From an uncultured Alphaproteobacteria bacterium (lineage in GTDB: Bacteria > Pseudomonadota > Alphaproteobacteria > Caulobacterales > Hyphomonadaceae), in assembly GCA_903842595.1 (NCBI GenBank), contig CAIMMO010000223.1, positions 1-64,000 of the forward strand: DNA of 64,000 nucleotides, read 5' to 3'. Positions 5,405 to 21,054 of the stretch are shown here, one piece after another. A program made the position numbers and the translations under genes. Every line of letters begins with the position of its first letter. The stretch's first letter is position 1. The notes under the pieces are model-generated. The model was not told the DNA's origin, made no database searches, and saw only the letters and a program-made list of their open reading frames with translations.

Positions 5405-5461
5405 ATGCGCGAGAGGTCAAAGACCCTCGTAAACGTAATCGGATCGCCGCGGCCCCGCTGA
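5405..5461 (+). CDS. ilvL: ilvB leader peptide (attenuation)
   Basis: An 18-codon ORF, too short for the track: MRERSKTLVNVIGSPRPR. It has a strong Shine-Dalgarno (CGAGGGAG) about 9 bases before the ATG. Codons 8-12 are Leu-Val-Asn-Val-Ile, placing four branched-chain amino acid codons in five positions, which are the end products of the ilv operon. It stops 32 bases before a textbook intrinsic terminator that precedes ilvB. GGCCC at 5451-5455 can pair with GGGCC at 5497-5501 of the terminator 5' arm. A ribosome stalled on the control codons would leave this pairing free; one reaching the stop codon would mask it. That is the expected attenuator logic. Confidence 0.85.
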   Translation: MRERSKTLVNVIGSPRPR

Positions 5462-5493
5462 TACGACGGGACCGAACGGCGAGCGACGACATC

Positions 5494-5522
5494 AAAGGGC
5501 CCGAGTGGCCCTTTTTCTTTTC
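5494..5522 (+). terminator. Intrinsic terminator of the ilvB attenuator
   Basis: AAAGGGCC (5494-5501), loop CGAGT, GGCCCTTT (5507-5514), continuing into TTTCTTTT. An 8-bp perfect stem plus T-run is rare in this GC-rich window. It sits 51 bases before the ilvB start and downstream of the leader peptide, so it would block ilvB unless antitermination occurs. An upstream stem (CGGCCCCG with CGGGACCG, one mismatch) could act as the pause/anti-antiterminator hairpin. Confidence 0.88.
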
Positions 5523-19308: not shown

Positions 19309-19337
19309 TTGACGTCAATCGCGCGCGCGACCATAGA
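19309..19337 (+). promoter_or_regulatory. Putative sigma-70-type promoter of the leuA leader
   Basis: TTGACG (19309-19314), 17-base spacer, CATAGA (19332-19337). The -35 is good and the -10 is poor. The expected transcription start, about 7 bases further on, coincides with the ATG of the leader peptide at 19344, so the leader mRNA may be leaderless. Confidence 0.45.
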
Positions 19338-19343
19338 ACGATC

Positions 19344-19415
19344 ATGCGCGAACAGGGTCTCACCCTCCTTCTTTCCCTGCCGGGGCTGCTTAGCAGCCCC
19401 TGGGCGCGTTTGTGA
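19344..19415 (+). CDS. leuL: Leucine-rich leader peptide of leuA
   Basis: A 23-codon ORF, absent as such from the track. It starts MREQGLTLLLSLPGLLSS and ends WARL. Eight of 23 codons are Leu, including L-T-L-L-L-S-L and L-L, as expected for a leucine-sensing attenuation peptide. No Shine-Dalgarno precedes it; the putative promoter would start transcription at or next to the ATG. Hairpins follow: GGGGCTGC-TTA-GCAGCCCC inside the ORF (19382-19400) and GACCGGC-n7-GCCGGTC overlapping its stop (19414-19434). Confidence 0.8.
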   Translation: MREQGLTLLLSLPGLLSSPWARL

Positions 19416-19436
19416 CCGGCTGAGCCTGCCGGTCGC

Positions 19437-19489
19437 GCGTCCAGGGGTGACAAGCCAAGCAAAACCCCAAGACAGCCCTGACAGGACGC
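19437..19489 (+). promoter_or_regulatory. Possible Shine-Dalgarno-sequestering stem before leuA
   Basis: GCGTCC (19437-19442) can pair with GGACGC (19484-19489), enclosing GGGGT (19444-19448) paired with ACCCC (19464-19468). The distal arm includes the likely leuA ribosome site AGGA (19483-19486). No T-run follows any hairpin in this leader, unlike ilvB. This favours control at translation rather than an intrinsic terminator, but that is inference. Confidence 0.45.
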
Positions 19490-19494
19490 CCAAG

Positions 19495-21054
19495 ATGACC
19501 ACCCCCTCCACGAACAGCGCCGGCAAAGACCGCGTCTTCATCTTCGACACCACGATGCGCGATGGCGAACAATCGCCCGGCGCCTCGATGACCCTGCGCG
19601 AAAAGCTCGAGCTGGCCGAACTCCTGCAGGAGATGAAGGTCGACGTCTGCGAAGCCGGTTTCGCGGCCTCGTCCGAAGGCGACTTCCAGTGCGTCAGCCA
19701 GATCGCCGAACTCGCGAAGGACATGGCGATCTGCACGCTCGCCCGCTCCACGCTCACCGACATCGACCGGGCAGGGGAAGCGCTGCGCAAGGCGAAGGCC
19801 CCGCGCATCCACACCTTCATCTCCACCAGCCCCGTGCACATGAAGCACAAGCTGAAGATGGGTCCCAACGCCGTGCTCGAAGCCATCGGCGCATCGGTCA
19901 CTCACTCCCGCAAGTACGCGGGCGATGTGGAATGGTCGGCAGAGGACGCAACCCGCACCGAGTTCGACTTCCTGTGCAAGGCGATCGATGTCGCCATTTC
20001 GTCCGGCGCCACCGTCATCAACGTGCCTGACACGGTTGGCTATTCGCACCCCGCCGAATACGGCGCGCTGATCCGCCGCCTGATCGAGAATATCCCGAAT
20101 TCGGACAAGGTGATCTGGTCCACCCACTGCCACAACGACCTGGGCCTTGCCGTCGCCAACTCGCTGGCCGGCGTGATCAACGGCGCACGCCAGATCGAAT
20201 GCGCCATCAACGGCATGGGCGAGCGCGCCGGCAATGCCGCGCTGGAAGAATGCGTCATGGCGCTGAAAGTGCGCGGCGATTCGATGCCGTACTACACAGA
20301 GGTGGTAACGCCGAAACTCTCGCGCGCTTCCAAGATGGTCTCCTCCATCACCGGCTTCCCGGTGCAGTACAACAAGGCGATCGTCGGCAAGAACGCCTTC
20401 GCGCATGAAAGCGGCATCCACCAGGATGGCATGCTGAAGAACCGCGAGACATACGAGATCATGCAGCCGGAAGATGTCGGCGTGCCCTCCACTTCGCTGA
20501 TCATGGGCAAACTCTCTGGCCGCAACGCCTTCCGCGACAAGCTGGAGGCGCTCGGCTACGTCCTCGAACCCACCGCCCTGAACGACGCCTTCAAGCGCTT
20601 CAAGGATCTCGCCGACAAGAAGAAGCACGTCTTCGACGAAGACATCATCGCCCTCGTCGACGAACAGATGTCCGGCAAGCAGGAGCGGATCACGCTGAAG
20701 CGCCTGAAGGTGGTCGCCGGCACGGACGGTCCGCAGACCTCGGAGATCGAACTCATCATCGATGGCGAGCCGCGCGCGACAACCGCCACAGGCAACGGCC
20801 CCGTTGACGCCGTCTTCAACGGCATCCGCCAGCTCTGCCCGCACACCGCCGTGCTCGAACTCTACCAGGTCAGCGCCGTCACAGAGGGCACCGACGCCCA
20901 AGCCACCGTCTCCGTTCGCCTTTCCGAACAAGGCCTCGTCGCCACCGGCAAGGCGAGCGACCCGGACACGCTGGTTGCGTCAGCGCGCGCCTATGTGCAC
21001 GCGCTGAACAAGCTGGATGTGCGCAGGGCGAAGGCGACGGGCGCAGCGGCCTGA
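19495..21054 (+). CDS. leuA: 2-isopropylmalate synthase
   Basis: First committed step of leucine synthesis: acetyl-CoA plus 2-oxoisovalerate. 519 aa from MTTPSTNSAGKD; the track start at 19255 reads through the leader. The N-terminal TIM barrel begins VFIFDTTMRDGEQSPGASM (metal-binding Asp and catalytic Arg). Conserved STHCHNDLGLAVANSLAG and NGMGERAGNAALEE (HxH metal and signature 2) follow. The C-terminal regulatory LeuA dimer domain covers about 385-515. AGGA lies 8 bases before the ATG. Preceded by the Leu-rich leader peptide, so leucine supply probably controls expression. Confidence 0.96.
   Translation: MTTPSTNSAGKDRVFIFDTTMRDGEQSPGASMTLREKLELAELLQEMKVDVCEAGFAASSEGDFQCVSQIAELAKDMAICTLARSTLTDIDRAGEALRKAKAPRIHTFISTSPVHMKHKLKMGPNAVLEAIGASVTHSRKYAGDVEWSAEDATRTEFDFLCKAIDVAISSGATVINVPDTVGYSHPAEYGALIRRLIENIPNSDKVIWSTHCHNDLGLAVANSLAGVINGARQIECAINGMGERAGNAALEECVMALKVRGDSMPYYTEVVTPKLSRASKMVSSITGFPVQYNKAIVGKNAFAHESGIHQDGMLKNRETYEIMQPEDVGVPSTSLIMGKLSGRNAFRDKLEALGYVLEPTALNDAFKRFKDLADKKKHVFDEDIIALVDEQMSGKQERITLKRLKVVAGTDGPQTSEIELIIDGEPRATTATGNGPVDAVFNGIRQLCPHTAVLELYQVSAVTEGTDAQATVSVRLSEQGLVATGKASDPDTLVASARAYVHALNKLDVRRAKATGAAA

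Follow-up and report, generated by a model that had tools for sequence, protein, structure and literature searches.

A leucine-rich leader of leuA in Hyphomonadaceae: a candidate translational attenuator with predicted leaderless initiation

What is the role of the short, leucine-rich reading frame that precedes leuA in this alphaproteobacterial genome? The window analysed here (the whole stretch of DNA, 64,000 nt in length) belongs to an assembly of 4.24 Mb in 277 contigs, and its closest named relatives are Hyphomonadaceae MAGs, e.g. UBA7672. Downstream of the short frame, leuA itself (2-isopropylmalate synthase, 519 aa; 19495-21054, plus strand) is recognized by NCBIfam NF002087 with 827.6 bits (cutoff 729) and by TIGR00973 leuA_bact with 673.7 bits (cutoff 598.7). 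All 4227 Rfam families, leader and T-box models included, yielded no match above the gathering threshold anywhere in the window, and matches at a relaxed threshold were at chance level. An earlier note, made from the letters of the window, had suggested attenuation of translation rather than of transcription. Comparative pairing tests and the absence of a terminator support this suggestion, and we consider it likely, based on sequence comparison and modeled folds, that the leuA leader is a ribosome-mediated translational attenuator sensing leucine.

Our sample was built on leuA. Of 105 family genomes, 101 had a match at the strict cut-off, and 80 named loci were also retrieved. After removal of identical upstream stretches, 141 remained, from which we kept those with CCCCT and AGGGG in the expected order: 100 from the family and 34 from alphaproteobacteria outside it.

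Leader peptide and promoter geometry

The leader peptide frame, leuL (19344-19415, plus strand), encodes MREQGLTLLLSLPGLLSSPWARL and ends with a UGA stop codon at 19413-19415; an in-frame Leu-rich ORF is kept in relatives. As the earlier note had it, eight of the 23 codons specify leucine (P ~9e-4 for at least eight Leu in 22 codons, assuming 10% Leu). Nearly every family leader follows the form M-x-K/N-...-L-rich-...(S/G)P(W/C). Leucine codon choice sets the leaders apart: CTT accounts for 162/369 Leu codons in leaders versus 208/2162 in leuA (58 family loci with leuA at hand; odds ratio 7.35), with a P of 5e-52 that is overstated because species are not independent. Within the window, Leu codons other than CTG and CTC make up 4/8 in the leader versus 2/40 in leuA (P 0.005). 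With such uncommon codons, a lack of charged tRNA would be felt more sharply.

Upstream on the same strand, a -35 box (TTGACG, 19309-19314) and a -10 box (CATAGA, 19332-19337) are separated by a 17-nt spacer (promoter span 19309-19337), and the A of the leader ATG (19344) is the seventh base 3′ of CATAGA. The earlier proposal that this promoter starts transcription at the peptide's own ATG agrees with that geometry, and the geometry extends across the family. Among the 98 family leaders with enough upstream DNA for promoter geometry, the distance from the first T of the -35 box to the leader ATG is 36 nt in 72 and 35 nt in 25; it is thus fixed at 35-36 nt in 97 of the 98, the remaining one being without such a box. 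The same 98 leaders have an A/T-rich -10 hexamer at -12 to -7, a C at -1 in 71% and an SD-like word 5′ of the leader ATG in only six cases. Because the spacing is fixed in 97/98 and hardly any leader has an SD, leaderless initiation appears to be a trait of the Hyphomonadaceae: by normal promoter geometry, the +1 would coincide with the A of the ATG and leuL would be translated from a leaderless message. Similarly, in Caulobacteraceae leuA leaders a -35 box, of the TTGC type, lies 35-38 nt before the ATG in 19/19. Leaderless mRNAs are common in C. crescentus, with 375 described (PMC4117421).

Competing pairings between leader and ribosome site

The RNA of the leader comprises four strands. Strand 1 (GGGGCTGC, 19382-19389) pairs with 19393-19400 to give a 1:2 hairpin (GGGGCTGC TTA GCAGCCCC), and 98 of the 100 family leaders possess a hairpin with a dG of -6 kcal/mol or below at this position. 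Strand 2 (GCAGCCCCTGGGCGCG, 19393-19408) lies within leuL, spanning its Ser-Pro-Trp-Ala codons, and contains a CCCCTG that is invariant in 100/100 family leaders. Part of it (CCCCTGGGCGCG, 19397-19408; CCCCTGG..) can pair with strand 3 (CGCGCGTCCAGGGG, 19434-19447; ..CCAGGGG), which has CAGGGG in 99/100 family leaders and TAGGGG in one. This antisequestor helix, 2:3, had been overlooked in the earlier note and is the strongest structure of the leader. Strand 4 (19476-19489) consists of CCCT (19476-19479) and AGGACGC (19483-19489), the latter containing the leuA SD, and is sequestered when strand 3 pairs with it instead. An outer helix joins GGTC (19431-19434) to GACC (19497-19500), i.e., the G of the leuA start codon plus codon 2.

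The predicted folds alternate between the mutually exclusive pairings 2:3 and 3:4. When 19384-19520 was folded, mimicking a ribosome stalled upstream, 2:3 formed and the SD was open in the centroid. Folding 19428-19520, which mimics a ribosome at the stop codon, gave 3:SD pairing together with GGUC/GACC, which takes in the final base of the leuA AUG. None of 200 shuffles folds as stably as the full leader (19344-19520; z -3.25). The SD-sequestering hairpin alone shows no extra stability over shuffled sequence (z +0.08 for 19428-19520; -1.55 for 19434-19497), and support for it is consequently comparative, not energetic. According to partition-function estimates, stalling exposes the SD further in 54 family leaders and has the reverse effect in nine, with a small average difference (0.53 versus 0.42 unpaired); in alphaproteobacteria from outside the family, simulated stalling produced no such opening.

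The comparative support comes from swap tests, in which the duplex energy of a leader's own two strands is set against that of strands exchanged between species. Similar leaders were grouped into 25 clusters, each represented once (10,000 permutations), and a second version of the test had one leader per genus (10 genera, 20,000 permutations); as repeated random draws make the permutations interdependent, the resulting values are approximate. Two leaders in which an upstream in-frame ATG was taken as the leuA start (L093, L094) are absent from the genus-level test and make up one of the 25 clusters in the other. Both pairings fit in a lineage-specific manner. For 2:3, the own value was reached by 0/10,000 permutations at the cluster level and by 3/20,000 at the genus level. 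For strand 3 and the ribosome site, it was reached by 1/10,000 across clusters, and by 0/10,000 when AGGGG was left out and the 5′ part of the strand considered alone; with one leader per genus, the counts were 119/20,000 (P ~0.006) and, for the 5′ part, 699/20,000. Within single genera, the 5′ part gave 36/20,000 in g3 (P ~0.002), and the signal of strand 3 with the ribosome site was weak in g5 and g8 (P ~0.10). Control pairings were not significant at the cluster level, be it strand 3 with leuA codons 2-11 (2128 per 10,000), strand 3 with the linker (4492) or strand 2 with the ribosome site (1194), nor were the genus-level controls (0.32 to 0.71).

An RNAalifold consensus of 12 leaders from the window's genus, computed with no preset structure, returned CGUCC/GGACG, AGGG/CCCU and GGUC/GACC, the last lying over the leuA AUG and present in 12/12 leaders for three of its four pairs and in 10/12 for the fourth. 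Sequestration of the leuA SD through GCGTCC/GGACGC, a central claim of the earlier note, gains support from the swap tests, in which strand 3 and the ribosome site fit their own partners better than swapped ones. Covariation of the stem at 19437-19489, which the note had named as a check, gave a divided picture. The swap tests speak for it, as does genus g8, where the helix changes in step (GGGUCCGCGC/GCGUGAGACC versus GAGCCCGCGC/GCGUGAGCUC; one two-sided change according to RNAalifold); in the window's genus, however, two-sided changes affect 0/13 pairs in an alignment too uniform to show any. The inner GGGGT/ACCCC helix that the note had added does not stand as a conserved element. In the window, it (19444-19448 with 19464-19468) forms alongside GCGTCC/GGACGC (19437-19442 with 19484-19489) in the MFE fold of 19428-19520. 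It is otherwise seen in L004 and, as the unconstrained genus consensus returns other helices, can be considered a local alternative only.

How might these pairings be put to use? With transcription starting at the A of the leader ATG, a ribosome would begin on the leaderless message. Were charged Leu-tRNA scarce, it would stall in the Leu run (codons 8-16) and mask strand 1, whereupon strands 2 and 3 would pair, leaving the leuA SD and start codon open for translation of leuA. With leucine plentiful, the ribosome would reach the UGA and cover strand 2; strand 3 would then pair with the SD and the region of the start codon, shutting off leuA translation. Start site, stalling, direction of the response and effect on leuA translation are what we infer from the arrangement of frame and strands.

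Does strand 3 have a further function? CCCCT and AGGGG (19396-19401 and 19442-19447 in the window) are invariant in 134/134 leaders, which were partly selected by this pattern, and show no compensatory change. AGGGG also resembles an SD with one G-U pair, and a second role is possible. Since AGGGG is more conserved than pairing alone requires, strand 3 may act directly on ribosomes, for instance as a G-U-containing SD-like decoy or standby site, in a leader class of Hyphomonadaceae and Caulobacteraceae whose leaderless uORF would control leuA only at translation. We regard this extended scheme as rather unlikely.

The CCCCT/AGGGG pair persists outside the Hyphomonadaceae. The swap test for strand 3 and the ribosome site was negative over the other alphaproteobacteria, and we therefore do not extend SD sequestration to the class as a whole. 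In Caulobacteraceae (L040, L053 and others), we see by inspection a CUUCGCGG/CCGCGAAG helix 9-20 nt before leuA, for which the sequences make a convincing case next to the leuA start; C. vibrioides, likewise by inspection, shows a UCGUCG/CGACGA pairing. Longer leaders, with LLLLSCP at their end, occur in another group of alphaproteobacteria (L043, L048, L057, L065, L073 and similar). They have CCCCTAGG/TTAGGGG, an AAAGGAG motif follows downstream, and the signal between strand 3 and the ribosome site is absent.

Transcriptional or translational output

Does the leader act on translation or on transcription? On the plus strand, the search for terminator-like sites returned a single weak 5-bp stem inside the leuL ORF (19354), one site where 0.4 are expected by chance, and none between the leuL ORF and leuA in the window. 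That the leader is devoid of a T-run terminator, as noted before, is thus borne out, and almost no family leader has a strong hairpin with a T-run behind it.

The ilvB leader, 14 kb away in the same genome, is built differently. Its peptide (MRERSKTLVNVIGSPRPR, 5405-5461, plus strand) has its own SD (GGGAG before the ATG) and is followed by a Rho-independent terminator (AAAGGGCCCGAGTGGCCCTTTTTCTTTT, 5494-5521; element 5405-5522); like the leuA leader, it is not among the Rfam matches in the window. The window and almost every family locus examined combine the SD with the terminator; of the 30 loci retrieved, all family loci that could be evaluated have a strong hairpin with T-runs behind it at the corresponding position (L195 is truncated). 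The leuA leader has neither SD nor terminator, so the difference in output that the earlier note had suggested for the two leaders holds consistently beyond this genome: family ilvB loci have terminators, nearly all family leuA leaders do not.

Absence of an intrinsic terminator would also suit a leader that acts mainly on transcription by way of Rho. The untranslated leader and early leuA RNA would then be terminated by Rho, with SD sequestration as a step towards termination, and Rho-dependent termination has indeed been proposed for the terminatorless leaders of Actinobacteria (PMC1262725). However, the pairing of strand 3 with the ribosome site is kept across lineages, and a purely Rho-based switch would have no need for it. 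We therefore hold this alternative to be improbable; Rho may nonetheless contribute downstream.

A classical transcription attenuator, whose terminator (a GGGG/CCCC hairpin) is weak or went unrecognized, is very improbable. Four Hyphomonas leaders (L021, L022, L027, L132) do have AGGGG...CCCCCC followed by T-rich sequence, but the window has AAGACAG, not a T-run, behind ACCCC, and four consecutive T are lacking from strand 3 to leuA in 74/100 family leaders. A hairpin with a dG of -8 or below precedes such a run in only 11/100, all of them weak, and the ilvB leaders show what form a real terminator takes in these genomes. As regards the Hyphomonas subclade, its AGGGG and CCCC run with the T-rich sequence behind may be a weak terminator added to the SD-sequestering helix.

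We attach just as little credence to an alphaproteobacterial form of the actinobacterial LEU element, in which the Leu codon run itself would pair with the leuA SD, possibly as a pseudoknot. Points of likeness are the same gene, a Leu-rich leader, no terminator and, in S. lividans, leaderless transcription (PMC1262725, PMC8079986). The swap test between Leu run and ribosome site was marginal (P ~0.058). Against it, the Leu run in the window offers the SD only UCCU/AGGA (by inspection), and it is strand 3, which lies outside the ORF, that the comparisons support as partner of the SD. Finally, that the conserved hairpins serve only mRNA stability or processing, with an incidental short ORF, is scarcely credible: variation across codon positions in family leaders shows no clear coding signature, and is left unused as proof of translation because the third-position excess is not clear, but the ATG stands at a fixed promoter distance in 97/98, the frame is Leu-rich in all, CTT is favored, and the leader occurs, as far as examined, upstream of leuA only.

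Relation to known leaders

Amino-acid leaders of Proteobacteria are usually described as transcription attenuators, and Vitreschak et al. 2004 is reportedly the main comparative study of them. A search of the open literature returned no account of this leuA leader in Alphaproteobacteria, an earlier prediction in that study being possible. The leader represents a candidate RNA family missing from Rfam. Together with the ilvB leader, it allows us to ask within one cell what decides between transcriptional and translational output, and whether leaderless initiation suits the latter.

The leuA leader resembles the leu, ilv and his attenuators of enterobacteria in that a short leader peptide carries the regulatory codons and the 1:2, 2:3 and 3:4 pairings exclude one another; unlike in those attenuators, 3:4 covers the leuA ribosome site and forms no terminator, and the leader has no SD. 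The erm and cat resistance genes are controlled by translational attenuators, in which stalling in a leader ORF frees a sequestered SD and the signal is an antibiotic. Release of the SD by stalling would be alike here, with uncharged Leu-tRNA as the probable signal and a leader that is predicted to be leaderless. Within the Alphaproteobacteria, trpL of S. meliloti (peTrpL, rnTrpL) has a leaderless leader ORF that begins with the AUG of the transcript (PMC10117765), as we predict for leuL. The trpL leader, though, attenuates transcription, releasing the sRNA rnTrpL, whereas the leuA leader has no terminator.

The nearest precedent is provided by the actinobacterial leuA leaders. Their LEU element combines a Leu-rich leader with the lack of a terminator and has its Leu codons paired with the SD (PMC1262725), and LeuL1 of S. 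lividans is transcribed leaderless and terminatorless while IlvL of the same organism has a terminator (PMC8079986). Here, too, a Leu-rich peptide precedes leuA with no Rho-independent terminator, and the ilvB leader of the genome has one. The earlier note had called two leaders of differing output in one genome notable; the outputs do appear to differ, yet a leaderless, terminatorless leuA leader has this precedent in S. lividans (PMC8079986). The switch itself appears to be wired differently. The LEU element uses the Leu run as partner of the leuA SD, with a pseudoknot proposed in addition; in the Hyphomonadaceae leader, the SD would be bound by a separate strand located outside the ORF, and a strand within the ORF would counteract this. 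The parallel with the ilvB/leuA contrast of Streptomyces suggests either convergence or a shared constraint on leuA.
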